DNA from: Paludibaculum sp.
Lineage (GTDB): Bacteria; Acidobacteriota; Terriglobia; Bryobacterales; Bryobacteraceae
Reading direction: 5' to 3'
Assembly: GCA_029973955.1 (NCBI GenBank)
Contig: JARKQJ010000231.1
Location: 1-64,000, forward strand
Length of the DNA stretch: 64,000 nucleotides
Part shown: piece after piece, positions 1,537 to 30,895 of the stretch
Layout of the letters: every line of letters starts with the position of its first letter
How positions within the stretch are numbered: the first letter of the stretch is position 1
The notes under the pieces: model-generated
Databases searched by the model: none
What the model was told of the DNA's origin: nothing
The model's input: the letters and a program-made list of their open reading frames with translations, nothing else
Made by a program: the position numbers and the translations under genes

Positions 1537-1576
1537 CACGCGCCCATTATATGGCGCGCTTGCCGGCCCTGCTCCG

Positions 1577-1602: not shown

Positions 1603-1633
1603 CCGATTTATGCTAAGTCAGCGGAGCAACATC

Positions 1634-14114: not shown

Positions 14115-14253
14115 ACTTTCTTGTATGCAATTGCCCGGCCAACCTGACGGAGTGAAATCCCTTCGCCAATAGTCCATTTGGATGACGACGGGGAGCGCCA
14201 GCCTATGACAACGTAATTCAGGCTCGCTAATTCCAGACTCAGAGGTCTGCTCC

Positions 14254-17200
14254 ATGATGAAGTTTGTTTGGACGCTCGCTCTCGCCGCCATGCTGCCGCT
14301 GGCCGGCCAACAAAGCACAGGCACAATTACCGGCACCGTCACCGATGCTCAGGACGCAGTAGTCGTCGGGGCGCAGGTGGAGGTGGCCAACCTGGACACC
14401 GGCGCGGTATTCCGGACCAAATCGAACGAACAGGGCTACTACACAGCGCCCGGGATGACGGTGGGGCGGTATGAAGTACGCGCCACGATGGCGGGGTTCA
14501 AGAAGTATGTCCGGTCGGGCATCGTTCTGCAGGTGAACCAGAACGCGCTGGTGAACATCGCGCTGCAGGTGGGCCAGTTGGTGGAATCGGTCGAGGTTTC
14601 CGCCGAGGCGGCGTTGGTGGACACGGGCAGTGCCACACTGGGCCAGGTGGTGGAGAACCGCCGCGTACAGGAACTGCCGCTGAACGGCCGCAGCGCTCTG
14701 GCGCTGACGATGATGACGGCGGGGGTGATGTCGAACTCGGGTTCGACGCAATCCGGATTTGGCGACCGGGGTATCGGTCTGTCTTCGATCAGCATCAATG
14801 GCGGCCCGAACTCGATGAACGCGCAGATGCTGGACGGCAACAACAACACGCTGGTCTACATCGGCGAAGCGGGTGTGCCCCCGGCGGTGGATGCGGTGGA
14901 GGAGTTCAAGGTGCAGAGCGGCACGATGTCGTCGGAGTTCGGCTTCACGGCCGGCGGCAGCATCAACCTGGTAACCAAGTCCGGCACGAATCAGTTCCAC
15001 GGCACGGCCTACGAGTTCCTGCGGAACGACGTGCTGGACGCGCGGAACACCTATGCGGCCAAGAAGCTGCCACTACGGTACAACCAGTATGGCGGCTCGC
15101 TGGGCGGACCGATCATCAAGAACAAGACATTTGGTTTCTTCAACTGGGAGCAGTACCTGCTGCGCAAGAGCACACCGCGCATCTCGACGGTGCCCCTGTC
15201 GACATGGCGCGGGGGCAACTTCAGCGACTACCGCAACGCCAACGGCGTGCTGATCCCGATCTACGATCCGGCGACGATCCGGCCCAATCCTGGCGGCAGC
15301 GGGCAAGTGCGCGATCAGTTCCCGAACAACATCGTTCCGCAGACGCGGTTCGATCCCGTGTCGGTGAAGATCATGAACTTCTGGCCGGCTCCCAATGCGG
15401 CGCCGACCAACGCATACACGCAGAGCAACAACTTCGTGGACTCCGCGATCAGCCGTGTGGACTGGACCCAGGTTCACGCCAAGGTGGACCATCGCTTCAA
15501 CGATGCGAACTCGATGTTCGTACGGTACACGCACGCCGAGCACAATCCGAGCGGCAACTCGATCTTCCTGGATCCGACGGTGGGGCAGGACCGGGTGGAC
15601 GACCAGACGAACCGCAACGCGGTGGTGTCGGACACGCATGTGTTCTCGCCGACGCTGATCAACAACCTGCGCGTCGGCATCAGCCGGCAGTCGTTTATCT
15701 TCCAGGCGATCAATGCCGGGAAGAACTGGCCGAGCCGGCTAGGCTTTGCACCGATCGTGCCGGACGACCAGATGCCGGACATCAGCTTCGGGTACGGCAA
15801 CATCGGCGGCCAGGCGAACGGCACGCGCGCGTCGATGAGCTGGGACATTCAGGACATGGTGACGAAGATTGCCGGCAACCACACGTTGAAGGCGGGCTTC
15901 AACCTGCGGATGATGCAGGGTGGGAACAAGCAGGGCAGCGGACTTTCCGGCATCTTTCGTTTCAGCGGGCTGACGCAGAATCCGCAGTCCACGGCCGGCA
16001 CAGGGGCGGACATTGCAGGCTTCCTGCTGGGCACGGTCAGCAGTGTAAGCATCGATTCGATCCTGGGCAACATGTTCGAAGGCAACTCGTACAGCTTCTT
16101 CGTGCAGGACGACTGGAAGATCAACCGGAAGCTGACGCTGAACCTTGGGATGCGCTACGACTACCAGCCGAAGGCGACGGAAAGGCACAACGGGATCATC
16201 AACTTCGATCCGAATGGGATCGATCCAAAGTCGGGCCTGAAAGGCACAACCGTCTTTGCCGGCGTGGACGGCCAGCCGAGAGAGTGGATGGGCTCGGACA
16301 AGAACGACTTCGGGCCTCGCTTCGGGTTTGCCTATGATGTATTCGGTTCTGGAAACACGGTGTTGCGCGGCGGCTACGGGATCTTCTATCCGCAGGTGGC
16401 ATACCGCGACTTCTTCGGCAACACGCAGTTGTTCTCGACGACGAACACGAGTTATGCCGCGCCGGGGCCGGGGCAGCCGATCGTGCAGTTGCAGGCAGGA
16501 TTTCCGTACGCTCCTCTGAAGTCGCCGGGCGCATCGGCGGGACCGGGGGCGCTGCTGGGCCAGGCGGCGAGCATGACGGAAAACGATCCCACTACGCCGC
16601 TAACGCAGCAGTGGAACTTCTCGATTCAGCACCAGATCAAAAGATGGATGGTGGATGCCACCTATGCGGGCAACAAGGGCAATCATTTCATCGCGAGCAA
16701 CTACAACCTGAACCAGGTGAGCCCGGAGACGCGCTTCGCGCTGAAGCAGAGTCTGAACGACGCGGTGCCGAATCCATACGCCGGAAAGGTACCGGGCGGG
16801 TTAGGGGCGGCGACGATCAGCCGGGAGCGCTCACTGATGCTCTACCCCTATTACACCAGTGTGAGTGTATATAGTCCGCGCAACGGCAACTACGTCTCGC
16901 ATCAGTTACAACTGAATGTCCGGCGCAGCTTTGCGAGCGGCTTCCTGGTGCACTTCGCATACACCAAGGGCAAGATCATCAGCGACAGCCTGAACACGCC
17001 GGTGAACTGGAACCTGGAAGCCGGGAACGACATTGGTTACCAGGACGGCCTCTACAACCGGAAGGAGAACAAGGCGATCGATCCGAACGACATAGCGCAG
17101 CGCGCGGTGGTCAGCTTGGTGTATGAGCTTCCGTTCGGCGCCGGCCAACGGTTCAACCCCGACAACGGGGCCCTGCGGCTGGTGGTAGGCGGCTGGCAGA

Positions 17201-17640
17201 TTTCGACGATCGGCCAGATGCAGAGCGGGCAGCCGCTGAGGATCCGCGGCGCCTCGAACCAGATGGCAGACCGGCCGAATTCGACAGGGAAGAGCGCGAA
17301 GATCGACAATCCCACCGCGCAGCGCTGGTTCGACACCACGGTGTTCATCAACCCAGTGGACTTCACGTTCGGCAACGTAGGCCGGACGCTGCCGGATGTG
17401 CGGGCTCCCGGCACGTTCAACTGGGATCTCTCGGCGATCAAGAACACGAGGATCACGGAGCGGGTGAACCTCCAGTTCCGGGCGGAGGCGTTCAACTTCC
17501 TGAACTCAGTGAACCTCAGCGCGCCAAGCACGAGTTTCAGCCCAGGTCCGGGAGGCACGAACGTGAGCGCGACCTTTGGCACGATCACCTCCGCGCGAGA
17601 TGCGAGGAGCATCCAACTCGGGATGAAGCTGCTCTTCTAG
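14254..17640 (+). CDS. Oar-like TonB-dependent receptor with carboxypeptidase-regulatory domain
   Basis: A 1,128-residue outer-membrane protein. A signal peptide (MMKFVWTLALAAMLPLAG) is followed by a CarboxypepD_reg domain (GTITGTVTDAQDAVVVGAQV, about residues 22-105), a plug (RVQELPLNGRSALALTMMTAG and MLDGNNNTLVYIG), and a long beta-barrel that ends in an aromatic residue (IQLGMKLLF). This is the Acidobacteriota type of Oar-like receptor, thought to import large ligands such as oligosaccharides. It lies directly upstream of the FAD-oxidoreductase/GH16/GH31 operon on the same strand, 223 bases away, which suggests it is the uptake component. It is divergent from the AhbD-like gene (139 bp between). 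Confidence 0.9.
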   Translation: MMKFVWTLALAAMLPLAGQQSTGTITGTVTDAQDAVVVGAQVEVANLDTGAVFRTKSNEQGYYTAPGMTVGRYEVRATMAGFKKYVRSGIVLQVNQNALVNIALQVGQLVESVEVSAEAALVDTGSATLGQVVENRRVQELPLNGRSALALTMMTAGVMSNSGSTQSGFGDRGIGLSSISINGGPNSMNAQMLDGNNNTLVYIGEAGVPPAVDAVEEFKVQSGTMSSEFGFTAGGSINLVTKSGTNQFHGTAYEFLRNDVLDARNTYAAKKLPLRYNQYGGSLGGPIIKNKTFGFFNWEQYLLRKSTPRISTVPLSTWRGGNFSDYRNANGVLIPIYDPATIRPNPGGSGQVRDQFPNNIVPQTRFDPVSVKIMNFWPAPNAAPTNAYTQSNNFVDSAISRVDWTQVHAKVDHRFNDANSMFVRYTHAEHNPSGNSIFLDPTVGQDRVDDQTNRNAVVSDTHVFSPTLINNLRVGISRQSFIFQAINAGKNWPSRLGFAPIVPDDQMPDISFGYGNIGGQANGTRASMSWDIQDMVTKIAGNHTLKAGFNLRMMQGGNKQGSGLSGIFRFSGLTQNPQSTAGTGADIAGFLLGTVSSVSIDSILGNMFEGNSYSFFVQDDWKINRKLTLNLGMRYDYQPKATERHNGIINFDPNGIDPKSGLKGTTVFAGVDGQPREWMGSDKNDFGPRFGFAYDVFGSGNTVLRGGYGIFYPQVAYRDFFGNTQLFSTTNTSYAAPGPGQPIVQLQAGFPYAPLKSPGASAGPGALLGQAASMTENDPTTPLTQQWNFSIQHQIKRWMVDATYAGNKGNHFIASNYNLNQVSPETRFALKQSLNDAVPNPYAGKVPGGLGAATISRERSLMLYPYYTSVSVYSPRNGNYVSHQLQLNVRRSFASGFLVHFAYTKGKIISDSLNTPVNWNLEAGNDIGYQDGLYNRKENKAIDPNDIAQRAVVSLVYELPFGAGQRFNPDNGALRLVVGGWQISTIGQMQSGQPLRIRGASNQMADRPNSTGKSAKIDNPTAQRWFDTTVFINPVDFTFGNVGRTLPDVRAPGTFNWDLSAIKNTRITERVNLQFRAEAFNFLNSVNLSAPSTSFSPGPGGTNVSATFGTITSARDARSIQLGMKLLF

Positions 17641-17670
17641 AAGACTGAGCCCGGCAGGGCCACCGGAATG

Positions 17671-17698
17671 GCGGGGCGCTGTGGAGACGGCGCCCCGC
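17671..17698 (+). terminator. GC-rich hairpin after the receptor gene
   Basis: A perfect 9-bp stem GCGGGGCGC / GCGCCCCGC with a 10-base loop, 31 bases after the stop codon. There is no U-tract after it, so it may act as an RNA 3'-end stabiliser or an attenuator between the receptor and the operon rather than a true terminator. Confidence 0.45.
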
Positions 17699-17863
17699 AG
17701 CCACATGGGGGCTCTATCTTTGGTATGCCGGTAATGACTCGATTTGGAAGTGTGAGGTCGGGCTGGCCTGGCGGATGGCGCGGGAGCCGGTGCCGACGGA
17801 GTTCCGGACCAAGCGGTAGGACGGAGTGGTGGAGGAGTTCGAGAGATTGGTGGAGTTACCGAG

Positions 17864-19663
17864 ATGAATTGCAGTGTTGCTGTAATGGTGTTGCTGGCGG
17901 CGCCGGTATCGGCGCAATCGCTGCTGGTGGAGGCGGAGGCGTTCCGGTACGCGGGGGGCTGGGTGACAGACCAGCAGTCGATGGAACAGGTGGGATCGGC
18001 GTACCTGCTGGCGCACGGGATGGGCGTGCCGGTGGCGGATGCGAAGACGGAAGTGACGGTGCCGGCGGCGGGAGAGTACCGGGTGTGGGTGCGGACGCGG
18101 GATTGGGTAGCGCCGTGGAACGGGAAGGGCGCGCCGGGCCGGTTTCAGGTGATGGTAAATGGCAAGGCTTTGGGGGTTGCGTTCGGGACAAGCGGGGCAG
18201 CCTGGCACTGGCAGGATGGCGGAACCGTGGATTTGGCGGCCGGCAAGGCCGAGCTGACGCTGCACGACTTGACGGGCTTCGATGGTCGGTGCGATGCGGT
18301 ACTGCTGACCAAGGACCAGAGCCTGCGCCCGCCCGATGGCGGTGAGGCGCTGGCGAAGCTGCGGCGCGCGTTGCTGAAGGCCCCGGCGCAGGCCAAGAAC
18401 GCAGGCGAATACGACCTGGTGGTGGTGGGCGGCGGCATGGCGGGCACGGCGGCGGCGGTGTCGGCGGCGCGCTACGGGTTGAAAGTGGCTTTGATTCAAG
18501 ACCGGCCGGTGCTGGGCGGGAACAACTCTTCGGAGGTGCGAGTGCACTTGGGCGGGAACATCAACCTGCCTCCGTATCCGGCGCTGGGCGCGGTGGTGGA
18601 CGAACTGGACCCGAAGCGCGAGAAGGGCAATGCGCAGCCGGCGGCGAACTATGACGATGAGAAGAAGCTGGCGGTGGTGAAGGGCGAACGGAACATCAGT
18701 TTATTCCTGAGCACACGGGCGACGCGGGTGGAAAAGAGCGGGACGAGGATTGCGGCGGTGATTGCCACGGATCTGGCGACAGGCGCGGAGCTGAGATACA
18801 CGGCGCCGTTGTTCGTGGACTGCACGGGAGACGGGACGATCGGGGCGCTGGCGGGGGCCGATTTCCGGTATGGGAGGGAGAGCCGGGCGGAGACGGGCGA
18901 ATCGATGGCGCCGGAGGTGCCGGACCAGTTGGTGATGGGCACATCGGTGATGTGGTACACGGAAGACGCGGGCAAGGCGGTGTCATTCCCGGAGACGCCC
19001 TGGGCGATTCAGTTCAACGATGCGACGTCACAACATGCGACGCGCGGCGACTGGAATTGGGAGACGGGGCAGAACCGGAACCAGGTGAGCGACTTAGAGA
19101 CGATTCGGGACCACGGACTGCGGGCGGTGTACGGCAACTGGTCGTTCCAGAAAAACCGCGCGAAGGACAAGGAGAAATACGCGAATCTGCGGCTGTCGTG
19201 GGTGGCGTATGTGGGGGGCAAGCGCGAGTCGCGGCGGCTGTTGGGCGACGTGATTCTGACGCAGATGGATGTGGAGCAGCAGAGGTTGTTTCCGGATGCG
19301 GCGGTGACGGCGACGTGGTCGATTGACCTGCACGTGCCTGATCCGAAGAACGCGGCGCAGTTCCAGGGCGAGGAGTTCCGGACGGTGGCGACGTTCGGAA
19401 AGAAAGCGCCTTACGCGATTCCGTACCGGTGCCTGTATTCGCGGAACGTGCCGAACCTGTTCATGGCGGGGCGCAACATCAGCGTGACGCACGTGGCGCT
19501 GGGGACGGTGCGGGTGATGCGGACCACGGGCATGATGGGCGAGGTAGTAGGCATGGCCGCCGCCGTGGCGCGCAAGCACGACGCGACGCCCCGCGCCGTT
19601 TACGAAAACCATCTGGACGAACTGAAGGCCATGCTTTCGCGTGGCGCTGGAAAGGACCGGTAA
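17864..19663 (+). CDS. Secreted FAD-dependent oxidoreductase with N-terminal carbohydrate-binding-like domain
   Basis: A 599-residue protein. A signal peptide (MNCSVAVMVLLAAPVSAQ) is followed by a beta-sandwich module (about residues 20-150: VEAEAFRYAGGWV, VPAAGEYRVWVRTRDWV, LTLHDLTGFDGRCDAVLL) that resembles CBM6/CBM35-type domains. The catalytic part begins with GGGMAG at 189-194, then QDRPVLGGNNSSEVRVHLG, and ends with YRCLYSRNVPNLFMAGRNIS. It is the first gene of the glycan operon. A sugar-binding module on an FAD enzyme of this family supports a polysaccharide or oligosaccharide as substrate. The reaction is unknown; oxidation of a sugar hydroxyl is the most natural guess. Confidence 0.8.
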   Translation: MNCSVAVMVLLAAPVSAQSLLVEAEAFRYAGGWVTDQQSMEQVGSAYLLAHGMGVPVADAKTEVTVPAAGEYRVWVRTRDWVAPWNGKGAPGRFQVMVNGKALGVAFGTSGAAWHWQDGGTVDLAAGKAELTLHDLTGFDGRCDAVLLTKDQSLRPPDGGEALAKLRRALLKAPAQAKNAGEYDLVVVGGGMAGTAAAVSAARYGLKVALIQDRPVLGGNNSSEVRVHLGGNINLPPYPALGAVVDELDPKREKGNAQPAANYDDEKKLAVVKGERNISLFLSTRATRVEKSGTRIAAVIATDLATGAELRYTAPLFVDCTGDGTIGALAGADFRYGRESRAETGESMAPEVPDQLVMGTSVMWYTEDAGKAVSFPETPWAIQFNDATSQHATRGDWNWETGQNRNQVSDLETIRDHGLRAVYGNWSFQKNRAKDKEKYANLRLSWVAYVGGKRESRRLLGDVILTQMDVEQQRLFPDAAVTATWSIDLHVPDPKNAAQFQGEEFRTVATFGKKAPYAIPYRCLYSRNVPNLFMAGRNISVTHVALGTVRVMRTTGMMGEVVGMAAAVARKHDATPRAVYENHLDELKAMLSRGAGKDR

Positions 19664-19668
19664 TCCCC

Positions 19669-20394
19669 ATGAAGCTCCTGCTCTCCCTTCTCGCCTGTTG
19701 GACGGCATTCGCCGCCCCGCCCGGCGGCTACAAGTTGAAGTGGGCGGATGAATTCGACAAGCCGAAGCTGGACCCGGCGAAGTGGGTCTACCGCACGGAC
19801 TCCAAGCACTGGAGCACGCAGAAGCCGGAGAACGTGGTGATTGAGAAAGGCAGCCTGGTCTTGCTGCTGAAGAAGGAGGCGTCCGGCGACAAACAGTACA
19901 CGGGTGCGGGCGTCATCAGCAAGCCGGTATTCCGATTCGGCTACTACGAGACGCGCTTCCGCATTCTGGCGGGCAAGGGCTGGCACTCATCGTTCTGGAT
20001 GATGGGGCACGACGGATCCGGCGGGACGGGCACGAAGAACACGGCGCTGGAGCTGGATGTGATTGAGAACGACTCGATCGACCTGAACTCCTACGGCGTG
20101 AACCTGCACAAGTGGCCGGATCCGCACGTGAGCTACGGCCACAAGAACGTAAAGGCCGCGAACCTGGGCGAGTTTCACGTATTCGGTTGCGAGTATACGG
20201 CGGAGAGCGTGAAGTATTTCCTGGACGGCCAACTGGTGCAGACCATTGACGTATCGAAGCTGCCGCACAGCGACCTGAGCATCTGGCTGACGTCGATCGC
20301 ATCGTATTTGGGCAAGACGGATGCGGTGGACGAGACGAAGCTGCCGGGGCGGGTTGAGTACGACTACGTCCGTTTCTACGAGAGAGGCAGGTAA
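19669..20394 (+). CDS. GH16-family glycoside hydrolase (first copy)
   Basis: A 241-residue secreted protein (signal peptide MKLLLSLLACWTAFAAP). The fold markers are GYKLKWADEFD near the N-terminus and GYYETRFRILAGKGWHSSFW. The active site is ALELDVIEND with Glu128, Asp130 and Glu133, the ExDxxE motif of GH16 (nucleophile, assisting Asp, acid/base). GH16 enzymes cleave beta-1,3/1,4-glucans, laminarin, agar, carrageenan or porphyran backbones. It starts 5 bases after the FAD-oxidoreductase stop and ends 2 bases before the next gene. The paralogue at 22667 has the same residues at the same positions. Confidence 0.88.
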   Translation: MKLLLSLLACWTAFAAPPGGYKLKWADEFDKPKLDPAKWVYRTDSKHWSTQKPENVVIEKGSLVLLLKKEASGDKQYTGAGVISKPVFRFGYYETRFRILAGKGWHSSFWMMGHDGSGGTGTKNTALELDVIENDSIDLNSYGVNLHKWPDPHVSYGHKNVKAANLGEFHVFGCEYTAESVKYFLDGQLVQTIDVSKLPHSDLSIWLTSIASYLGKTDAVDETKLPGRVEYDYVRFYERGR

Positions 20395-20396
20395 CC

Positions 20397-22670
20397 ATGA
20401 TCCGTGACACCGGCAGCAGCGGCATCCGCAAAGAGGTCTCTGTGGAGTGCAAGGCCGACCTGGCCGTGGCGGGCGGCGGGTTGGCAGGAGTGTGCGCCGC
20501 GATTACGGCGGCGCGGGCGGGCATGGATGTGGTGCTGATCCAGGACCGGCCGGTGCTGGGCGGGAACGCATCGAGCGAAGTGCGGCTATGGGTGCTGGGC
20601 GCGACATCGCACATGGGGAACAACAACCGGTGGGCGCGCGAGGGCGGCGTCATCGACGAGATTCTGGTGGAGAACATGCACCGGAATCCGGAAGGGAATG
20701 CGTTGCTGGTGGACGTGTTGCTGCTGGAGAAGGTGACGGCGGAGCCGCGGATTACGCTACTGCTGAACACGGCAGTGCATGAGGTGGAGAAGTCGGGGCC
20801 GGAGACGATCTCGGCGGTGCGGGCGTGGTGCAGCCAGAACAGCACGGCGTACACGGTGCGGGCTCCGCTGTTTGTGGACGCGTCGGGTGACGGGGTGGTG
20901 GGGTTCCTGGCCGGAGCGGCGTTCCGGATGGGGGCGGAGTCGAAGGAAGAGTTTGGAGAAGGCTTCGCTCCGGAGAAGGAGTATGGGGAGCTGTTGGGCC
21001 ATTCGATGTACTTCTACTCGAAGGACACGGGGCGGCCGGTGCAGTATACGGCGCCGGAGTTTGCGCTGAAGGACATCAGCGTGATTCCGCGGTACCGGGA
21101 CATCAAGGCCTCGGATTCGGGGTGCCGCTTCTGGTGGTTCGAGTACGGCGGGCGGCTGGACACCGTGCACGACACGGAGAAGATCAAGTGGGAGCTATGG
21201 CGCGTCATCTACGGCGCGTGGGATTACATCAAGAATTCGGGGCGGTTTCCAGAGGCGGAGACGATGACCCTGGAGTGGGTGGGGACGATTCCGGGCAAGC
21301 GCGAGTCGCGGCGGTTTGAAGGGGATTACATTCTCACGCAGAGCGATCTGGTGGAGCAGCGGCGTCATGCGGATGCGGTGGGCGTAGGCGGCTGGGCGAT
21401 GGATCTGCATCCGGCCGATGGGGTGTACAGCGCGCTATCGAGCTGCACGCAGTGGCATTCGAAGGGGACGTATCAGATCCCGTACCGCTGCCTGTATTCG
21501 CGCAACATAACGAACCTGTTTCTCGCCGGAAGGATCATCAGCGTATCGCACGTGGCGTTCGGGTCGACTCGTGTGATGGCGACGTGCGCGCACACGGCGC
21601 AGGCGGTGGGGATGGCGGCGGCGCTGTGCCGGAAACACGGGGTGCGGCCGGCCGCGGTTCCGATGAAGGAGTTGCAGAGGGAACTGCTGAAGGCGGGGCA
21701 GTCCATACCGGGGGTGCGGCTGGAGGACGCGGAGGACCTGGCGGGGCAGGCGGAGATCACGGCATCGAGCGCGTTTGTACTGGAAGAGTTCGCACCTTCG
21801 GGTGAGACGATCGCGCTGGACGCCTCGCGGGCGATGCTGCTGCCGGTGGGGGCCGGGCCTGTGCCGGTAGTGCGATTTCTGGCGGATGTGGAAGAAGCGA
21901 CCAGGCTGGATGTGGAGATTCGAAGGTCTGCCAGGGCCGGCGGCTTCACGCCGGATGAGACGCTGTTCCGGGACACGCTGACGCTGAAGCCGGGGAAGGC
22001 GCAACCGGTGGAGATCCTGGCCCCGCTGGCGTTGGAGGAGCCGGCATACCTCTTCTTCACCTTGCTGCGGAATCCGGCGGTGCGGGTGCATCTGAGCGAT
22101 GCCCGGGTGAGCGGGGTGCTTTCGGTTTCGCAGGTGATGAATGCGGCGGTGGCGAAAGGCGCGCGGCAGGAGCCGCCGGAGGGAACGGGGATCGACTCGT
22201 TCGAGTTCTGGCTGCCTGCGCGACGGCCGGGCGGGAAGAACTTCGCGCTGCAGTGCAAGCCTGGGATTCGGGCGTTCGAGCCGGAGAGTGTGGCGAATGG
22301 GTTGGCGCGGCCGGTTTCAGCGCCGAATGCGTGGGTGGCGGCATTGGACGACTCCTCACCGCGGTTGGCGCTGAGGTGGGGTGCGGCGCAGGAGATCCAC
22401 CGGATCGACCTGGTGTTCGATACGGACTACGACCACCCGATGGAGTCTGTGCTGTGGGGGCATCCGGAACGGGACATGCCGTTCTGCGTGCGGGACTACC
22501 GGGTGCTGGACGATAGCGGGCGTGTGCTGGCGGAGGTTCGGGGGAACCACCAGACGCGGAACCGTGTGGTGCTGGAGACGGCAGTGAAGACCGCTGCCGT
22601 GCATCTGGAAGTGCTGGCGACGCACGGCGCGCCGGCCGCTCTGTTCGAAGTGAGGTGCTACTCGAAATGA
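20397..22670 (+). CDS. FAD-dependent oxidoreductase with C-terminal beta-sandwich domains
   Basis: A 757-residue protein without an obvious signal peptide. FAD motif GGGLAG at residues 26-31, family block QDRPVLGGNASSEVRLWVLG, an internal TLEWVGTIPGKRESRRFEGDY, and the closing segment YRCLYSRNITNLFLAGRIIS. The last 300 residues form one or two beta-rich domains, ending with a discoidin-like module similar to that of the protein at 1634. It is the third gene of the operon. The start 20397 is 2 bases after the previous stop. In contrast with its relatives at 1634 and 17864 it appears cytoplasmic, so the operon may oxidise the substrate on both sides of the membrane; that is inference. Confidence 0.82.
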   Translation: MIRDTGSSGIRKEVSVECKADLAVAGGGLAGVCAAITAARAGMDVVLIQDRPVLGGNASSEVRLWVLGATSHMGNNNRWAREGGVIDEILVENMHRNPEGNALLVDVLLLEKVTAEPRITLLLNTAVHEVEKSGPETISAVRAWCSQNSTAYTVRAPLFVDASGDGVVGFLAGAAFRMGAESKEEFGEGFAPEKEYGELLGHSMYFYSKDTGRPVQYTAPEFALKDISVIPRYRDIKASDSGCRFWWFEYGGRLDTVHDTEKIKWELWRVIYGAWDYIKNSGRFPEAETMTLEWVGTIPGKRESRRFEGDYILTQSDLVEQRRHADAVGVGGWAMDLHPADGVYSALSSCTQWHSKGTYQIPYRCLYSRNITNLFLAGRIISVSHVAFGSTRVMATCAHTAQAVGMAAALCRKHGVRPAAVPMKELQRELLKAGQSIPGVRLEDAEDLAGQAEITASSAFVLEEFAPSGETIALDASRAMLLPVGAGPVPVVRFLADVEEATRLDVEIRRSARAGGFTPDETLFRDTLTLKPGKAQPVEILAPLALEEPAYLFFTLLRNPAVRVHLSDARVSGVLSVSQVMNAAVAKGARQEPPEGTGIDSFEFWLPARRPGGKNFALQCKPGIRAFEPESVANGLARPVSAPNAWVAALDDSSPRLALRWGAAQEIHRIDLVFDTDYDHPMESVLWGHPERDMPFCVRDYRVLDDSGRVLAEVRGNHQTRNRVVLETAVKTAAVHLEVLATHGAPAALFEVRCYSK

Positions 22671-23422
22671 AACTCCTGACGATGGTTCTGGTGTCGCTGC
22701 CCCTGTTGGCCGAGCCGCCGGCGGGGTACAGGCTGAAATGGGTGGATGAGTTCAATGGGAGCGCGGTGGATCAGCAGCGCTGGATATACCGGACCGATGT
22801 AAAGATGGAGAGTTCTCAGCGGGCGGAGAACGTGACAGTGGAGAACGGGTACCTGGTGATTCAACTGAAGAAAGAACAGCACCAGGGCAAGGCGTATACG
22901 GGCGGCGGGGTGATCAGCCGCGAGAAGCAGCGGTATGGGTACTACGAGGCGCGGGTGAAGATGCACGGCGGATCGGGGTGGCACCAATCGGTTTGGGCGA
23001 TGTTTGCGGGGGATGGGACGACAACGTATCCGCAGCAGATGCGGACGGAGATCGACGGGATGGAGTTCGACTCGGATGTGACCTGGAAGGGGCACATGGG
23101 GTTGATCAAGTGGGAGGGTCCGGGAAAGAACACGTCGTTGAGCTGCACGCCGGGGGTGTACCGGGGACCGCTGGGATTCGACGCGTCGACGAGTTTTCAC
23201 GATTACGGGTTCGAGTGGACGCCGAAGGATGTTCGGTTTTACCTGGACGGCGATCTGCGGTGCGTGCTGCCGTATCCGCCCACGGATGGGGAGCACGACC
23301 TGATCCAGTTCTGGCTGACGGCGATCGCCTATGAGAAGCTCTCCGGGCCGATCGACGACCGGAAGCTGCCGGGGAAGATGCTAGTGGACCGGGCGGCGTT
23401 TTACGTGAAAGAGGAGAAGTGA
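22667..23422 (+). CDS. GH16-family glycoside hydrolase (second copy)
   Basis: A 251-residue secreted protein (signal peptide MKLLTMVLVSLPLLAE). GYRLKWVDEFN, GYYEARVKMHGGSGWHQSVW and the active site RTEIDGMEFD (Glu128, Asp130, Glu133) define GH16. The catalytic residues have exactly the same numbers as in the copy at 19669, so the two are paralogues. This copy has extra loops after the active site (YRGPLGFDASTSFHDYGFEW), which may change the subsite. The ATG overlaps the previous stop codon as ATGA, a sign of translational coupling. Confidence 0.88.
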   Translation: MKLLTMVLVSLPLLAEPPAGYRLKWVDEFNGSAVDQQRWIYRTDVKMESSQRAENVTVENGYLVIQLKKEQHQGKAYTGGGVISREKQRYGYYEARVKMHGGSGWHQSVWAMFAGDGTTTYPQQMRTEIDGMEFDSDVTWKGHMGLIKWEGPGKNTSLSCTPGVYRGPLGFDASTSFHDYGFEWTPKDVRFYLDGDLRCVLPYPPTDGEHDLIQFWLTAIAYEKLSGPIDDRKLPGKMLVDRAAFYVKEEK

Positions 23423-23423
23423 G

Positions 23424-25583
23424 ATGCACTGGGCGGCGCTGGTTCTGGCTGGGTTGACGGTGGCTTCGGCGGAGGAGCCGGTGGTGATAACGGCTGGGCG
23501 GACGCGGCTGACGATGGGCGGAGAGCCGCTGACTGTGCAACTGGAAAGCGACGGGGCGACGGTGGCCGGAGCCCATGCGGCGGGCGGGCTGCTGATTGGG
23601 GATCCGGAGAGCCTGGAGACGGTGCGGATCGAGTCGGTTGGCTATAACCGGCAGGGGCACCGGGTGTTGGCGGTACGGACGGCGTCGGGCAAGCGGGCCA
23701 GGGTGACGGTGGCGCTGACGCCGCACCAGGCGGATGTGACGGTGCTGCCGGAGGAGCCGATGGCGGTGCTGCTCAGGTTAGCCCCGATGGCTCCGGGGTT
23801 TGGGTTGGGCGACCACGCGGTGACGAAGCGGGCTTCGTTCGATACGGACATCACGGGATACCGGGAGGACCGGTTTCTGTCGGGCACGGGGCTGACGCGG
23901 CTGATTTCGAACTTCGCGTATTACCCGAAACAGAAGTTTGCGTTTCTGGTTTGGGAGCCGGGGATGAAGATGGTGCGGAGCACGGCGGAGGAGTGCGCAC
24001 AGGGGTCGAGGAAGGCGGAGGGCGAGGTGCGGTTTTCGCTGTTCACGGGTTCGGCGAAGGAGATCTACGCGCAGTTTCTGGAGTCGCGAAACCTTTACGG
24101 CTATGAGGTGATGAAGCCGAAGTACGAGTTCTTTGGAGTGGGTTGGGAGGCGTTTGGGGCGCTGGCGTGGGATACGAACTACAAGACCGTGGCGGAGAAT
24201 GTGGGCGAGTACCGGAGGCGGGGTTATCCGCTGAGTTGGATGGTGGTGGGGTCGGGATTCTGGCCGCGGGCCGACAAACGGTTCCATGAGACGACGAGTT
24301 TCGGGATGTACGACAACAACCTGTACCCGGACCCGAAGGCGTTCATCGCGCAGTTTCACGCGCTGGGGATGAAGTACTTCCAGGGGCTGAGGACGACGTT
24401 CATCGTGGACGGGCCCTACAGCGAGGAGGGGGTGCGGAACGGCTATTTCGTGGAAGAGGACGGGAAAGCAAAGGTGTTCCAGTTCGGCTGGCCGAAGAGT
24501 CCGTGCTACTTCCTGGACTGGCGGAAGCCGGAGGCGGTGGAGTGGTTCCGGCGGTTGACGCGGAAGTGGGTGGAGTACGGGGTGGACGGGTTCAAGGAAG
24601 ACGTTTTCGGGTATGAGAAGTACACGCTGGGGGACGACAAACTGGATCCGGTGAACGCGGCGCTGATGCGGGAGGGGCTGTATGTGATGGGGCGGAACGC
24701 ATACCTGGCTTCGCCGGCGGACCTGCACCGGTTGAACGACTTCAACTACAACCAGCAGCAGGATCGCGGGCCGGTGAACGCGCTGGCGTACGCCTATTCG
24801 GGCTTTCCGCTGGTGTATCCGGACATCGTGGGCGGGACGTTTGGGGAGGGTCACTTCGATCTGAAGGTGACGCCGAAGATGCGCGCGTACATGAAGCGGA
24901 ACGCGATGTGGGCGGCGGTGCATCCGTCGATGTCGATGGGGCAGGGGCCGTGGACGTTTGGGGATCCGGAGGTGGAAGAGGTACTGCTGAAGGCGGCGCA
25001 GGTCCACGACCGGCTGCAGCCGTATTTCTACAGCCAGGCTGTGCGGTTCTCGCTGGACGGGTATCCGCATCCGATGACGCCGCTGCCAGTGGCGTATCCG
25101 GGCGATGCGCAGGTGTACGGGCGGGAGAACGAGCGGGTGCGTGGGTATGAGTGGCTGATCGGGGACGCGCTGCTGGCGGCGCCGTTGTATGGGAACGACT
25201 ATGAGACGGCACAGACGCGAGATGTGTATCTGCCGGCGGGGCCGTGGATGGAGTACGACACGGGTGTGCGGCACGAGGGGCCGCTGATGTTGAAGAACTA
25301 TGCCATGCCGGTGGCGAAGACCCCGCTGTTTGTGGGTGGAACGGGGGTTGTGGTGGAGAAGAAGGGGAGCGGGTTGGTGGCGCGGGTGTATCCGGTGGCG
25401 AAGGAAGCGCAGGTCGAGTTCATCCATCCCGATGGGCTGAGCCGGAGCGTGATCCGGGTGAAGGTGGGGGACTGGAAGGCGGCGGAGGTGCGTGGGGCGA
25501 AAGCGGGGAAGGTGGAGGCGTCGTGGCAGCGGCACGCGCTGGAGTTTGGGATTGTGGCGGGGGAGAACTATGAGGTCCGCTGA
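23424..25583 (+). CDS. GH31-family glycoside hydrolase
   Basis: A 719-residue secreted protein (signal peptide MHWAALVLAGLTVASAE). The N-terminal beta-sandwich (about residues 20-225) has FGLGDHAVTKRASF, and the TIM barrel follows. The nucleophile is Asp393 in YGVDGFKEDVFGYE. AYSGFPLVYPDIVGG, about residues 455-470, is the second active-site block of the family. C-terminal beta domains (MTPLPVAYPGDAQVYG, VYLPAGPWMEYDTG) complete the fold. GH31 enzymes remove alpha-linked glucose, xylose, galactose or sulfoquinovose residues. The gene follows GH16 with one spare base. Together the enzymes suggest a beta-linked backbone with alpha-linked side groups. Confidence 0.88.
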   Translation: MHWAALVLAGLTVASAEEPVVITAGRTRLTMGGEPLTVQLESDGATVAGAHAAGGLLIGDPESLETVRIESVGYNRQGHRVLAVRTASGKRARVTVALTPHQADVTVLPEEPMAVLLRLAPMAPGFGLGDHAVTKRASFDTDITGYREDRFLSGTGLTRLISNFAYYPKQKFAFLVWEPGMKMVRSTAEECAQGSRKAEGEVRFSLFTGSAKEIYAQFLESRNLYGYEVMKPKYEFFGVGWEAFGALAWDTNYKTVAENVGEYRRRGYPLSWMVVGSGFWPRADKRFHETTSFGMYDNNLYPDPKAFIAQFHALGMKYFQGLRTTFIVDGPYSEEGVRNGYFVEEDGKAKVFQFGWPKSPCYFLDWRKPEAVEWFRRLTRKWVEYGVDGFKEDVFGYEKYTLGDDKLDPVNAALMREGLYVMGRNAYLASPADLHRLNDFNYNQQQDRGPVNALAYAYSGFPLVYPDIVGGTFGEGHFDLKVTPKMRAYMKRNAMWAAVHPSMSMGQGPWTFGDPEVEEVLLKAAQVHDRLQPYFYSQAVRFSLDGYPHPMTPLPVAYPGDAQVYGRENERVRGYEWLIGDALLAAPLYGNDYETAQTRDVYLPAGPWMEYDTGVRHEGPLMLKNYAMPVAKTPLFVGGTGVVVEKKGSGLVARVYPVAKEAQVEFIHPDGLSRSVIRVKVGDWKAAEVRGAKAGKVEASWQRHALEFGIVAGENYEVR

Positions 25584-26835
25584 CGCGCTGCGCCCGCCGG
25601 GGAGTTCCCGATTCCGGTGGGTGATTGTGGCGCTGCTGTTCGTCTCGACGGTGATCAACTACCTGGACCGGCAGAACCTGTCGATTCTGGCGCGGACCAT
25701 TCAGGACGATCTGCACATCGACGATATGCAGTACAGCTACGTGGTGCAGGCGTTTCTGCTGGCGTACACGGTGACGTATGTCTTCGCGGGCCGGATCACA
25801 GACCGGTTGGGCACGCGGCTTTCCATGGCGTGCTTTGTCATCTGGTGGTCGATCGCGGACATGTGCACGTCGATGAGCCGGGGATTGCTGTCGCTGGGGT
25901 TCTTCCGGTTTCTGTTGGGGATTGGCGAGCCGGGGAACTACACGGCGGCGCCGAAGGCGGTGTCGGAGTGGTTTCCGCCGAAGGAGCGGGGGTTGGTGAT
26001 TGGGATCTATACGGCTGGAGCGACGCTTGGGGCGACCATCGCACCGCCGCTGATCGCGTTTCTGGCGGCGCACTTTCACTGGCGGGCGGTGTTCCTGGTG
26101 ACGGGGTCGTTGGGTTTGATTTGGGTGATTCCGTGGCTGGCGGTCTATCGGAAGCCGGAGGAGCATCCGCGGGTGTCGGCGGAGGAGTTGTCGTACATTC
26201 AGGCCGGGAGCGCTCCGGCGGAGGAAGCGGAGCATCCGCACCCCTGGCGGGCAGTGTTGAGCCGCAAGGAGACGTGGCTATTGATGATGGGCCGGATGCT
26301 GACGGATCCGGTGTGGTACTTCTACCTGTTCTGGTTCCCGAAGTATCTGACGGACGCGCGGCACCTGACGATTGTGGAGGTGGGACAGATCGCGTGGCTG
26401 GTGTACCTGGCGGCGGACATCGGGTGCATTTTCGGGGGGTGGTTGTCGGGATGGTTCATCCGGAGGGGCGTGGTGCCGGCGCAATCGAGGCTGTATGTGA
26501 TGGCGATTGCGGCGGTGCTGCTGCCGTTGAGTCCGCTGATCTCACGGGCGCCGACTCCGCTGATGGCAGTGGGGATTGCATCGATTGCGGCTTTTTCTCA
26601 CCTGGCGTGGCAGATTTCACTCAGCACCATCATTGTGGATGTGTTCCCCAAACCTTTGCTGGGGACGGTGTTTGGACTGGTGGCGGCGGGGTCGGGGCTG
26701 GGTGGAATGCTGTCGGCGAATCTGATTGGAAGGGCGATCACTTACTGGTCGTACACGCCGGTTTTCGTGGTGATGGGGTTCCTCCATCCGTTCTCCTACC
26801 TGATGCTGCAACTGGTTCGGCCGAGGAAGCAGTAG
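25570..26835 (+). CDS. MFS transporter of the anion:cation symporter type
   Basis: A 421-residue, 12-helix protein. The start at 25570 overlaps the end of the GH31 gene by 14 bases. STVINYLDRQNLSILARTIQ and GRITDRLGTRLSM (loop 2-3 motif) are typical of the ACS family, which includes hexuronate and galactonate importers (ExuT, DgoT). The second half has VDVFPKPLLGTVFGLVAAGSGLGG. It is the last gene of the glycan operon and probably imports the final product. A preference for acidic sugars is suggested by the ACS-type sequence and is compatible with sugar oxidation by the FAD enzymes. Confidence 0.87.
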   Translation: MRSADALRPPGSSRFRWVIVALLFVSTVINYLDRQNLSILARTIQDDLHIDDMQYSYVVQAFLLAYTVTYVFAGRITDRLGTRLSMACFVIWWSIADMCTSMSRGLLSLGFFRFLLGIGEPGNYTAAPKAVSEWFPPKERGLVIGIYTAGATLGATIAPPLIAFLAAHFHWRAVFLVTGSLGLIWVIPWLAVYRKPEEHPRVSAEELSYIQAGSAPAEEAEHPHPWRAVLSRKETWLLMMGRMLTDPVWYFYLFWFPKYLTDARHLTIVEVGQIAWLVYLAADIGCIFGGWLSGWFIRRGVVPAQSRLYVMAIAAVLLPLSPLISRAPTPLMAVGIASIAAFSHLAWQISLSTIIVDVFPKPLLGTVFGLVAAGSGLGGMLSANLIGRAITYWSYTPVFVVMGFLHPFSYLMLQLVRPRKQ

Positions 26836-26890
26836 GGTAGACGGCGGCAAACAGGACAATCACCCCTGGAAAACTCGATAGTCTTGCCCC

Positions 26891-26919
26891 TTGAACCCCG
26901 CCGCGAGGTTTGCTAAGGT
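26891..26919 (+). promoter_or_regulatory. Sigma70-like promoter of the second Oar-like receptor
   Basis: TTGAAC (26891-26896), a 17-base spacer and TAAGGT (26914-26919). Transcription would start near 26926, which favours the ATG at 26947 over the ATG at 26926 and leaves a short leader with AAGGGG. Confidence 0.5.
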
Positions 26920-26946
26920 TCCTTCATGAAGGGGTCTCCAAAGACT

Positions 26947-29900
26947 ATGAACAAAACTAAAGTGGTTCTCACGGTTTTGACCTGTGCCTTCGTGATGGCG
27001 CTGTCGCTTCCTGGGCAGACCATTACGGGCACAATCACGGGTACCGTCACGGATCCATCTGGCGCTGTTGTTCCCAACGTCAAGATTGCTGCGACGAACA
27101 CGGCAACCAATATCACGACCGACTCGACGAGCAACGAAGCAGGCGTGTACAACCTGCTGTTCCTGCCGATTGGCGAGTACACGCTGACTGCATCGGTGTC
27201 GGGCTTTAAGAAGTCGTCGATGGGGCCGTTCCGGCTGGAAGGCTCGCAGGTAGCTCGTGTCGATGTGAAGCTCGAGGTTGGCGACACGACGCAAACTGTC
27301 GAAGTACAGGGCGTGGCGCCGGTGCTGCAGACGGAAACGACGCAGACAGGCGAAGCGATCAACACGGCGCAATTGACGTCGCTGCCGCTGAAGGGACGCA
27401 ACTTTGTCTCGCTGACGTTGCTGGTGCCTGGCGCGGTATCGCCGAACCCGGCCGGCATGACGGGCCGGTTTGGCTCTCGGCCGTATGTGAACGGCAACCG
27501 CGAGCAGACGAACAACTTCATGCTGGACGGCGTGGACGTGAACGATTCGATCGATAACCGCGTTGGTTATTCGCCGAACGTGGACGCGCTGGAAGAGGTG
27601 AAGGTGCTGACGGGCAACGCGGCGGCCGACTACGGCAACGCTGGCGGCGCGGCGGTGATGATGTCGTTGAAGAGCGGCACGAACCAGTTCCATGGGAACG
27701 TTTTCGAGTTCCTGCAGAACGACAAGCTGAACGCGAACGGGTTCTTCCGCAACCGCAACCTCTCGACGGCGAAGCGGACGGGGTTCAAGCGGAATATCTT
27801 CGGCGGCACGCTGGGCGGGCCGATCAAGAAGGACAAGCTGTTCTTCTTCGTGGACTACGAAGGGACGGAGAGCCGGAGCAGCGGTCCGGCAACGGCGAGC
27901 GTGGCTCCGTCGGCGTGGCGAAACGGGGACCTGAGCGCGTTCCCGAATATCATCACCGATCCGACGACGGGCCAGCCGTTCCCGGGCAAGCAGATTCCGG
28001 TTGCTCGGATTGTGAACCCGGTGGCGAAGAAGCTGTTCTCGTCGCCCGACCTGTATCCGCTGCCGAACCAGCCGGGCACGGGCGCGCTGCTGGTGAGCGG
28101 CAACTATGGCGCCAGCTCGGCGAGCGCAATTAAGAACCACCAGGGGGACGCCAAGATTGACTGGCGCTTCTCGGACAAAGACAGCATTTCCGGCCGGTTT
28201 TCGATGGGCGACTACCAGAGCGTTGGCAGCGCGTCCCCGCTGGCGATCCAGATGCAGAGCGGCCAGCTTGGTCCGACGAAGTCCGGCGTGATCAACTGGA
28301 ACCGGGCGTTTTCGCCGACGGTGGTGAACGAAGCGCGCGTTGCGTATTCGCGCATCATCATCAAGGACGCGACCATTGACTGGTCAGGGAAGTTGGGCGC
28401 CGACGGCAACGCGGCGTTCGGCATTCCGGGCGGGCAGCCGATTCCGGGGTTGAGCAGCGTGACGATCGGCGGCGGTCTGACGAGCGCCGGATCGGGCGCG
28501 TCGATCAGTAACACGGCCGACAACAAGTTCATCTACTACGACAACCTGACGTGGCAGAAGGGCCGCCATCTGTTGAAGATGGGTGCACAGTTGACGCGGT
28601 ATCAGCAGAACCGGTACTACGCGGGCAACAATGGCGCGCTGGGCATCTTTACGTACACGGCCACCTACACCGGCCTGGACTATTCGGACTTCCTGCTGGA
28701 TCAGCTTTCCAGCAAGGGCCGTGGTTCGGCGACGGGTACGTGGGGCCACCGTTCGTGGCGCACGGCGATCTTCGCGCAGGACGACTGGAAGGTCTCCTCG
28801 ACCTTCACGGTGAACCTGGGGCTGCGCTGGGAGTACATGGAACCGCTGTATGAAGTGGCGGACCGGCAGGTAAACATCGACACCTACACGGGCAAGCTGA
28901 TCTACGCGGGCCAGAACGGCAACAACCGGGCGACCTATAACGGCTACTGGAAGCAGTTCATGCCGCGCATCGGATTCGCCTGGACGCCGGCGGCGCTGAA
29001 GAACAAGATGGTGGTGCGCGCGGGCTATGCCTACATGAGCTTCATGGAAGGCACGGGCGCGAATCTGCGCACGACGCTGAATCCTCCGTTCTTCCTGGAA
29101 ACAAACTTCACCTACGACGCTCGCACGCCGGGCACGATTACGAAGGGCTTCTCGGACGTGGTGACCAGCGACATCCGGCTGGACATGCCCCGTCCGCCGG
29201 CCGCGGGCAACAACCCGCAATTGCAGGGCCGTGCGTGGGACCAGAACCTGCGGCCGCAGACGACGTCGCAGATGAACTTCTCGCTGGAGTACCAGTTCGA
29301 CAAGTTCACCTCGCTGACAGCTGCTTACGTGGGCCAGAAGGGCACGCACCTGGTGGCGCCGCACGAAGCGAATCAGGCAGTGGCCGGGACGGGTCCGTTC
29401 TCGACCTGGACGAACATCAACCTGCGCCGCCCGCTGATCAACGTGCTGCCGAACGTCAACAACATTGCGCTGACGGAAGGCTCGGCGACGATGGACTTCC
29501 ACTCCATGCAGTTGACCGGCCGGCGCCGGCTTTCCGGCGGGCTGGAGTTCCTGCTGAGCTATACGTATGGCAAGACTCTGACCGACAACCTGGGCTACTA
29601 CGGCAGCAGCGGCGTGTCGGCCGAGGGCGCGTACTGGCAGAATGCGTATGACCGCCGCGGCAACCGCGGTCCGGCGTTCTTCGACGCAAGGCACAACTTC
29701 ACGATCGGCGGCCTGTATGACCTGCCGGTGGGGAAGGGCAAGAAGTTCGGCAACGACATGAACGGGATTGCGCAGGCGATTCTGGGTGGTTGGAACATCA
29801 ACTACTTCCTGAACCGCCACACGGGCTTCCCCGTGACGATCATGGCGACTGACCGGACGGGCCAGGCGGCCAGAGGCAACGTCCGCGCGAACCGCTACGG

Positions 29901-30291
29901 ACCGCTGGTTGTTGACCAGTCCCTGGTGAACGTGGACAACTTCTGGGGTCTGCCGACCGACACGGCGGCGCGGACGGCGTACTTCTGCGCGGCCGGCGTG
30001 ATGAATGGAACCTGCCCGTACGGCCAGCCGGCGGACGGTTTCTTCGGCACTTCCGGGATCGGCACGGAGCGCGCGCCGACTTACTTCACGATGGACTTTT
30101 CCGTCGGGAAGAAGTTCAACATCACCGAGCGGCAGTACCTCGACTTCCGGGCTGAATTCTTCAACGGTCTGAATCACGTGAGCTGGGGCGCCCCGGGCCG
30201 CAGCATCGCCGCGCCGGCAAGCTTCGGCGCGATCGGGGGCCAGATTCAGGATCCGCGGAACATTCAGTTCGGCCTGAAGTACCACTTCTAA
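26947..30291 (+). CDS. Oar-like TonB-dependent receptor with carboxypeptidase-regulatory domain
   Basis: A 1,114-residue outer-membrane protein from this start (1,121 if the ATG at 26926 is used). Signal peptide MNKTKVVLTVLTCAFVMALS, CarboxypepD_reg domain (GTITGTVTDPSGAVVPNVKI), plug (LTSLPLKGRNFVSLTLLVPG and NNFMLDGVDVNDSIDNRVG), and a barrel that ends in FGLKYHF. It shares domain order and the GTITGTVTD stretch with the receptor at 14254 but is clearly diverged in the barrel. It has its own promoter and is followed by a terminator, so it is monocistronic. It may import a product of the preceding operon; the direct evidence is proximity. Confidence 0.9.
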   Translation: MNKTKVVLTVLTCAFVMALSLPGQTITGTITGTVTDPSGAVVPNVKIAATNTATNITTDSTSNEAGVYNLLFLPIGEYTLTASVSGFKKSSMGPFRLEGSQVARVDVKLEVGDTTQTVEVQGVAPVLQTETTQTGEAINTAQLTSLPLKGRNFVSLTLLVPGAVSPNPAGMTGRFGSRPYVNGNREQTNNFMLDGVDVNDSIDNRVGYSPNVDALEEVKVLTGNAAADYGNAGGAAVMMSLKSGTNQFHGNVFEFLQNDKLNANGFFRNRNLSTAKRTGFKRNIFGGTLGGPIKKDKLFFFVDYEGTESRSSGPATASVAPSAWRNGDLSAFPNIITDPTTGQPFPGKQIPVARIVNPVAKKLFSSPDLYPLPNQPGTGALLVSGNYGASSASAIKNHQGDAKIDWRFSDKDSISGRFSMGDYQSVGSASPLAIQMQSGQLGPTKSGVINWNRAFSPTVVNEARVAYSRIIIKDATIDWSGKLGADGNAAFGIPGGQPIPGLSSVTIGGGLTSAGSGASISNTADNKFIYYDNLTWQKGRHLLKMGAQLTRYQQNRYYAGNNGALGIFTYTATYTGLDYSDFLLDQLSSKGRGSATGTWGHRSWRTAIFAQDDWKVSSTFTVNLGLRWEYMEPLYEVADRQVNIDTYTGKLIYAGQNGNNRATYNGYWKQFMPRIGFAWTPAALKNKMVVRAGYAYMSFMEGTGANLRTTLNPPFFLETNFTYDARTPGTITKGFSDVVTSDIRLDMPRPPAAGNNPQLQGRAWDQNLRPQTTSQMNFSLEYQFDKFTSLTAAYVGQKGTHLVAPHEANQAVAGTGPFSTWTNINLRRPLINVLPNVNNIALTEGSATMDFHSMQLTGRRRLSGGLEFLLSYTYGKTLTDNLGYYGSSGVSAEGAYWQNAYDRRGNRGPAFFDARHNFTIGGLYDLPVGKGKKFGNDMNGIAQAILGGWNINYFLNRHTGFPVTIMATDRTGQAARGNVRANRYGPLVVDQSLVNVDNFWGLPTDTAARTAYFCAAGVMNGTCPYGQPADGFFGTSGIGTERAPTYFTMDFSVGKKFNITERQYLDFRAEFFNGLNHVSWGAPGRSIAAPASFGAIGGQIQDPRNIQFGLKYHF

Positions 30292-30314
30292 GAAGCGGCC
30301 AATCTGAAGTAAAA

Positions 30315-30343
30315 ACGGGGCACGCCCAAACGGCGTGCCCCGT
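30315..30343 (+). terminator. Hairpin terminator after the receptor gene
   Basis: ACGGGGCACGCC and GGCGTGCCCCGT pair perfectly over 12 bp around a CAAAC loop, 24 bases after the stop. Only a weak U-run follows. Confidence 0.65.
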
Positions 30344-30382
30344 AACGTATTCATGGTATTCTTCGTCTCAACACCAACCATC

Positions 30383-30772: not shown

Positions 30773-30785
30773 CCGAGTCTAAATT

Positions 30786-30840
30786 GGAGAATCCCCCGCC
30801 TGGCGCGCCCATGGGCCGCCGGGCGGGGGATTCTCCTTTT
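30786..30840 (+). terminator. Strong Rho-independent terminator after the cytochrome gene
   Basis: GGAGAATCCCCCGCC pairs with GGCGGGGGATTCTCC (15 bp), followed by TTTT. The loop can form a smaller hairpin. It begins 13 bases after the stop codon. Confidence 0.88.
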
Positions 30841-30895
30841 GGGGGGGGCGCTTCTGCGGGGCTTTCAAGTGGCGTATGCTGGCTCAAAGGCCTCT

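Follow-up and report, generated by a model that had tools for sequence, protein, structure and literature searches.

Gene organization of the locus

The window analysed here is a 64,000-nucleotide stretch from a Paludibaculum sp. (contig JARKQJ010000231.1), and it holds a candidate glycan-utilization operon of six genes at 17864..26835. In gene order, these encode a PF12831-family oxidoreductase dependent on flavin adenine dinucleotide (FAD1), a glycoside hydrolase of family 16 (GH16A), a second PF12831 flavoenzyme (FAD2), a second GH16 enzyme (GH16B), a GH31 enzyme, and a transporter of the major facilitator superfamily (MFS), all on the plus strand (Table 1). Open frames and Pfam matches confirm the order and the tight packing given in a preliminary description of this DNA. 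Since the successive intergenic gaps are +5, +2, -4, +1, and -14 bases, the six genes likely form one transcript. The set is flanked by two TonB-dependent transporters, for which 'Oar-type' is our own label; both lie beyond the coordinates given in the preliminary description. TonB1 lies 223 bases upstream and likely functions in oligosaccharide uptake, and TonB2 lies 90 bases downstream. A sister locus from a groundwater metagenome-assembled genome (L051) encodes eight operon-region proteins with 81-95% identity in the same order, TonB2 included. In L051, TonB1 and FAD1 are additionally separated by a GH43-like gene; no remnant of it was found by blastn in the 223-base gap of the window.

Table 1. 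Features of the window, and natural FAD1-GH16 fusion proteins at related loci
Feature	Position	Strand	Family match or remark
FAD1	17864..19663	+	PF12831, 264.8 bits, profile 1-414 of 416
GH16A	19669..20394	+	PF00722, 46.5 bits (cut-off 22)
FAD2	20397..22670	+	PF12831, 336.6 bits, profile 1-416 of 416
GH16B	22667..23422	+	PF00722, 60.9 bits (cut-off 22)
GH31	23424..25583	+	two Pfam GH31 domains, 71.9 and 43.1 bits
MFS	25570..26835	+	PF07690, 206 bits
TonB1	14254..17640	+	TonB-dependent outer-membrane transporter; OMP_b-brl_4, 737.7 bits; CarboxypepD_reg, 72.6
TonB2	26926..30291	+	same transporter type as TonB1 (Pfam); 81% identical in L051
Gfo/Idh/MocA-type oxidoreductase	30839..32035	+	Pfam; 95% identical in L051
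FAD0	1634..3592	+	third PF12831 gene; open reading frame 1049-3592, PF12831 at 1835-3055; outside the operon
FAD1-GH16 fusion	L034:7974-10475		natural fusion protein
FAD1-GH16 fusion	L046:9980-12400		natural fusion protein
FAD1-GH16 fusion	L140:8360-10783		natural fusion protein
FAD1-GH16 fusion	L122:8162-10741		natural fusion protein; GH16 triad intact

GH16A and GH16B are 39% identical to each other. Each has an N-terminal signal as judged by eye, and the ExDxxE triad is intact in both (E/D/E for GH16A) and invariant in 14 aligned sequences. A kappa-carrageenase label was rejected for both, as NF041449 gave 42.6 and 53.0 bits versus a cut-off of 350. The GH31 protein is probably a secreted exo-alpha-glycosidase. 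Its KED motif is present in all 21 aligned homologs, the window's included, and its best solved relatives, both weak, are the alpha-galactosidase 8j53 (54.8 bits) and an alpha-glucosidase (51.8). At L055:803-3649 (G059:C166), GH16B and GH31 are fused into one protein of 966 residues with no stop in between. Because of the weak alpha-galactosidase relative of GH31, the occurrence of GH16 relatives in degraders of red-algal polysaccharides, and a carbohydrate-binding module (CBM) of CBM32-like type on FAD2, we would hazard a galactan-like substrate as a weak guess.

FAD1 is linked to GH16 by adjacency and fusion

FAD1 begins with a hydrophobic Sec-like signal, recognised by eye, and is probably exported, in line with the preliminary description. 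The carbohydrate-binding-like domain that was also ascribed to it fared less well. The extra N-terminal domain (about residues 20-160) is weakly similar, with an E-value of 0.022, to 2vzp, a chain of an exo-beta-D-glucosaminidase that we take to be a CBM35, and the structure matches of the predicted FAD1 model (mean pLDDT 64.8) fell outside this domain.

All locus counts reported here come from six-frame homology searches, since gene calls gave wrong starts and some wrong strands, and the loci are not independent, several sharing a genome (e.g., L051/L100, L052/L074/L092, L056/L072, and L068/L071). The 150 genomes of the family contain nine FAD1-clade genes, five of which are next to (9 or 34 bases) or fused with a GH16 gene. 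The same threshold gave no further FAD1-clade gene among 297 genomes sampled from the phylum, one of which is the source of the window. The FAD1-GH16 link is also present in L051, L071, and the L122 fusion. The catalytic triad of GH16 is gone in three of the four fusions, reading E-G-D in G127, E-G-E in G028, and E-R-Q in G100. These three form a single branch of the tree (100/99) beside L122 (88/78), which suits one fusion event with decay afterwards. The triad-less GH16 may serve as a glycan-binding module, and its retention on the flavoenzyme would tie FAD1 to the glycan of GH16.

FAD2 accompanies the MFS importer

FAD2 is probably cytoplasmic, as previously proposed, because its N-terminus has no signal; none of the 16 FAD2 N-termini read has one. 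The preliminary description named a carbohydrate-binding-like domain for FAD1 only. FAD2 has one too, as its C-terminus is a split CBM32-like module, the beta-sandwich of which matches CBM32 structures; the chitosan-binding modules are those that we presume to be CBM32. In four genomes from another family (G460, G429, G328, and G373), the TGA that lies in frame in FAD2 proved to be the normal stop.

We assessed 19 FAD2 sites, namely the 12 matches above 800 bits less two at contig ends (G059:C378 and G127:C548), plus nine outside the family; the shorter fragments G059:C166 and G127:C364 and the Verrucomicrobiota loci selected by GH16 are not part of this count. At 18 of the 19 sites, which represent three families (f1, f2, and f38), FAD2 has an ACS-type MFS gene no more than 8 kb away, and at the nine sites outside f1 the two matches are 28-63 bases apart. 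The corresponding counts are 15/19 for GH31, 15/19 for TonB1, and 8/19 for GH16. Hence, the earlier idea of a one-to-one pairing of FAD and GH16 enzymes is not supported for FAD2, which keeps its MFS at 18 sites versus GH16 at eight. FAD2 is found with GH16A only, with GH16B only, with both, or with neither. In a second family, seven of eight loci have FAD2, MFS, GH31, and TonB without GH16 within the fetched 20 kb. In the uncounted fragment G059:C166, GH16, GH31, and MFS are all beside FAD2.

Gene content is largely preserved while order and accessories vary. The arrangements are TonB1-GH16A-FAD2-GH16B-GH31-MFS in G100, TonB1-x-FAD2-GH16B-sulfatase-GH31-MFS in G127, TonB-FAD2-GH16B-GH31-MFS in G109, FAD2-GH16B-GH31-MFS in G147, and GH16A-FAD2-GH31-MFS in G145; a second locus of G147 reads TonB1-GH29-GH16A-FAD1-FAD2-GH43-like-MFS. 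It is quite improbable, in our estimate, that this is an ordinary polysaccharide locus in which the FAD genes are passengers and the pattern reflects shared ancestry of one operon. Many of the loci do come from one bacterial family, with several per genome, and FAD2 seems, from its tree, to have moved between phyla. However, the order has been reshuffled with the content kept: GH16A stands before or after FAD1, FAD2 and MFS are adjacent or about 3-4 kb apart, and GH31 of f2 is on the other strand, with FAD2 being 58-85% identical over these genomes. A Reg_prop-type histidine kinase gene was observed near the locus in L035, L043, L053, L072, L083, L135, and L137; none was seen adjoining the operon of the window.

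The best solved-structure match of the MFS is the D-galactonate transporter DgoT (E-value 1.1e-50). Equivalents of DgoT Y44, D46, R47, and E133 are kept in all 38 MFS sequences, and the window MFS also shares those of Y79 and R126. In contrast, the galactonate contacts Q164, Q264, and N393 are found in 0/38 and S370 in 3/38; the window MFS has A, G, H, and A at positions 164, 264, 370, and 393, respectively. PMC10149257 assigns roles to D46, R47, and E133 in DgoT. A D-galactonate-transporter label was thus rejected, with the four contacts replaced and TIGR00893 giving 266 bits versus 395. As the equivalents of Y44, D46, R47, and E133 are retained, the MFS is expected to be a proton-coupled organic-anion symporter of the ACS/SLC17 type, with a cargo other than D-galactonate. 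Such a symporter fits the uptake of an acidic sugar suggested in the preliminary description.

The flavoenzymes belong to separate subfamilies

FAD1 shares about 41% identity with FAD2 across 400 residues, and the GxGxxG glycines of the FAD domain are invariant across 32 aligned rows. In the tree, FAD1 forms one clade (100/100), and FAD2 groups with FAD0, a third PF12831 protein of the window, across that branch. Judged by sequence, the two represent separate subfamilies of old origin and are different enzymes. A duplication of a FAD-GH16 pair was rejected, as FAD1 and FAD2 are not each other's closest subfamily and FAD2 varies in its GH16 company. FAD0-like genes occur near the same GH16 clade elsewhere, at 24 bases in L120 and at 159 bases in L102 (Catenovulum), and in L076 this clade is adjoined by a FAD gene from a further branch. 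L145, which is FAD2 by best seed, groups there with L148, L177, and L076, which shows that labels by best seed are rough. The L102 gene (6257-8101), which is beside GH16, has counterparts with 65-70% identity in Pontiella and Pelagicoccus, and this suggests that a FAD gene of this type moved between phyla. In L136 (G113:C196), an Acidobacteriota FAD2 branches among Verrucomicrobiota sequences.

Structural matches of the FAD fold are reductases, monooxygenases, and fumarate-reductase-like enzymes, which act on many substrates. The flavoenzymes could accordingly act on a non-carbohydrate partner, such as an aglycone, a quinone, or an electron carrier, and co-occur with glycosidases through an island for plant or algal matter. 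We consider this unlikely, given the CBM32-like module in FAD2, the GH16 fused to FAD1, and the ties of one GH16 clade to several separate FAD subfamilies.

Association of FAD genes with one GH16 clade

The whole genome (6.5 Mb) has ten full-length PF12831 genes and four GH16 genes, two of the latter being in this operon, and 0.03 PF12831 genes are expected per random 20 kb. Homology searches with the window genes found no FAD gene of this type within the 20 kb stretches around the other two GH16 genes (L047 and L048). Because the density of these gene families is low and members of other genera and families have the gene set too, the co-location of FAD and GH16 genes exceeds chance.

A GH16B query of the 150 family genomes found relatives in 21. 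When named genomes were scanned with the GH16 alignment, the best 80 of 81 stretches yielded 78 loci, which belong to Acidobacteriota, Verrucomicrobiota, Lentisphaerota, Kiritimatiellota, Actinomycetota, Planctomycetota, Bacteroidota, and gammaproteobacteria; 77 of them have a clade GH16 match, L127 giving none. A FAD gene of this family is present in 29 of the stretches, in 14 of which it is at most 400 bases away on the same strand. For Acidobacteriota, the clade loci with a FAD gene number 16/24 by seed search and 15/24 by profile, L071 being cut by the contig end. By both methods, no FAD gene was found at 20 control loci with GH16 of the same family outside the clade, in stretches of 5.9 to 20 kb; these controls are mostly high-scoring matches and not a random draw. 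The Fisher value for 16/24 versus 0/20 is 2.7e-6, which is descriptive only as the loci are non-independent. Given these counts, the FAD link is a property of this GH16 clade and not of GH16 generally. Conservation in relatives, which the preliminary description had named as its check, is partial: the link between FAD enzymes and the glycanase is kept, FAD1 being even fused, and a one-to-one pairing with GH16 is not supported.

Sugar-acid genes at GH16-clade loci

Enolase-family dehydratases, mostly with DHDPS-family aldolases, are found in the Acidobacteriota loci L057, L058, L108, and L120, the Actinomycetota loci L060-L066, and the gammaproteobacterial loci L090, L098, and L111. Four of the dehydratases were run against NCBIfam, and galactonate dehydratase was the best match, each time below cut-off. 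A short-chain dehydrogenase/reductase (SDR) match of at least 200 bits is also found in most of the Actinomycetota loci just listed and in all three from gammaproteobacteria, and some have an SMP-30-type gene. Such SDR genes occur at 9/78 loci, with no overlap with the 29 FAD loci (Fisher 0.02, again a descriptive value for non-independent loci). L102 of Catenovulum has transporter and IclR genes as in L098 of Colwellia, but a FAD gene instead. Together with the lack of overlap, this pair of loci suggests that a flavoenzyme can replace the dehydrogenase/lactonase step. At the genome level, an L102-type FAD (at least 60% identity) is present in four of eight genomes, an L098-type SMP-30 (at least 40%) in two, and both in none, although these eight genomes from nine loci are too few to weigh. 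SMP-30 matched more weakly (33-36%) in two genomes with that FAD, and one SMP-30 genome has a FAD match of only 42%.

Proposed model of oxidative glycan utilization

On balance, we lean slightly towards reading the locus as a Sus-like glycan-uptake operon without SusD, in which two functionally different flavoenzymes would make the route oxidative and an acidic saccharide would be delivered. By their families and intact motifs, GH16A and GH16B as endo-enzymes and GH31 as an exo-enzyme would act outside the cytoplasm to cut the polysaccharide. The oligosaccharides would cross the outer membrane by way of TonB1 and perhaps also TonB2. Exported FAD1 would act on the glycan recognised by GH16A, as fusion and adjacency suggest, and would probably oxidise this glycan or its fragments, with the oxidation generating an acid. 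The conserved residues of the MFS point to import of an anionic saccharide with protons. Cytoplasmic FAD2 may then act on the imported saccharide and begin its catabolism, consistent with its co-occurrence with the MFS, its signal-less N-terminus, and its CBM32-like module. The order of steps and the placement of the enzymes, which follows their N-termini, are part of this putative scheme.

Several observations weigh against it. FAD1 is without GH16 in the stretch at 4/9 sites, two of them on contigs of about 7 kb, and 48 of the 77 clade GH16 loci have no FAD gene in the stretch, some being on short contigs. The FAD2 of G000:C281 has none of the partners. The structure matches of the FAD domain are broad flavoprotein folds with high root mean square deviation, or cover the Rossmann part. 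They gave no catalytic relative, which carries no weight as evidence, and our searches found neither a known reaction for PF12831 genes nor a member with a proven sugar reaction. The mutual exclusion of FAD and SDR genes is confounded by phylum, and the FAD loci L056 and L058 have weak SDR matches (68 and 80 bits). Among the genes scanned in the window, none is for uronate or aldonate catabolism, and none is a dehydratase or aldolase of the sugar-acid kind. R47 is common across this transporter family, so it argues for an anion and not for an oxidised sugar; what is imported could be a uronate or sulfated residue that the glycan natively contains. Most FAD2 loci are also without FAD1, which therefore is not required everywhere for making the cargo. 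These last two points lead to a possible but doubtful alternative, in which a uronic acid or sulfated sugar native to the polysaccharide is imported by the MFS and catabolised by FAD2 with no prior oxidation, FAD1 being accessory. The occurrence of FAD2-MFS without FAD1 at most sites would fit such a cargo, as would the sulfatase within the G127 operon, a GH2 in an f2 locus with beta-glucuronidase and beta-galactosidase as best NCBIfam matches (below cut-off), and the CBM35 hint on FAD1. However, no uronate isomerase or lyase is among the operon genes scanned, and an accessory role leaves the FAD1-GH16 fusion unexplained.

Extending the oxidative scheme beyond the window, a bolder and less probable reading is that PF12831 holds a new group of carbohydrate-active flavoenzymes, by which Acidobacteriota, Verrucomicrobiota, and some marine bacteria would break down glycans oxidatively. 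FAD1 would be the exported, GH16-steered type, in some cases steered by a fused dead GH16, and FAD2 the cytoplasmic type coupled to an acid-sugar symporter; a flavoenzyme would replace the dehydrogenase and SMP-30 lactonase of relatives with the same GH16. The locus thus offers a testable hypothesis, in which fusion ties one flavoenzyme to a GH16 clade and the other goes with a single transporter. Working out the role of either enzyme would assign a function within the large PF12831 family, and it could uncover a route by which carbon from polysaccharides is processed with flavins in soils and lakes.

Comparison with known systems

Every part has a known family, and together they operate in the manner of a polysaccharide utilization locus. 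As in the Sus-type loci of Bacteroidota, there are TonB-dependent uptake, signal-bearing endo- and exo-glycosidases, an inner-membrane importer, and tight packing; the window operon differs by adding two PF12831 flavoenzymes. No SusD-family member was found among the ten window proteins scanned (12984 to 32035), so this span shows no tandem SusC/SusD pair. In the 3-keto-glycoside pathway of Bacteroides (BT2156-2160), glycosides are oxidised within breakdown by Gfo/Idh enzymes. Glycoside oxidation during breakdown is likewise proposed for the window operon, but its enzymes are flavoproteins, and the window Gfo/Idh protein scores 53 versus a cut-off of 750. The carrageenan/furcellaran locus of Colwellia echini (PMC6952198) is a further comparison, as a GH16 of C. 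echini (L098) is 35% identical to GH16B. This GH16, which may or may not be among the numbered enzymes of that paper, has sulfatase, dehydratase, aldolase, SDR, and SMP-30 genes as neighbours, but its 20.8 kb stretch has no FAD gene.

The preliminary description knew of no pathway with this gene order, and our literature search agrees, as it found nothing linking PF12831 or FAD-dependent oxidoreductases to GH16 loci. In the excerpt of PMC11345257, the sole FAD-dependent oxidoreductase adjoins a SusC/D pair, not the GH16 gene; in that of PMC6987092, a FAD-dependent oxidoreductase is near a GH3 gene, and the passage does not mention GH16. PF12831 or FAD_oxidored itself appeared in one paper only, on the Brucella flavoproteome.

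Neighbouring genes

It is uncertain whether the downstream Gfo/Idh/MocA-type oxidoreductase is part of the operon system. Upstream, a radical SAM protein (12984-14342, minus strand) is close to the AhbD heme b synthase, with 437.5 bits versus a cut-off of 500. The family scan reached 44.6 kb of the window, and two frames up to that position had no family match; glutamate-synthase-type genes occupy 34.5-40.6 kb. The start of FAD0 is likely at 1634, with a beginning, MNRRAFL, that looks Tat-like by eye.

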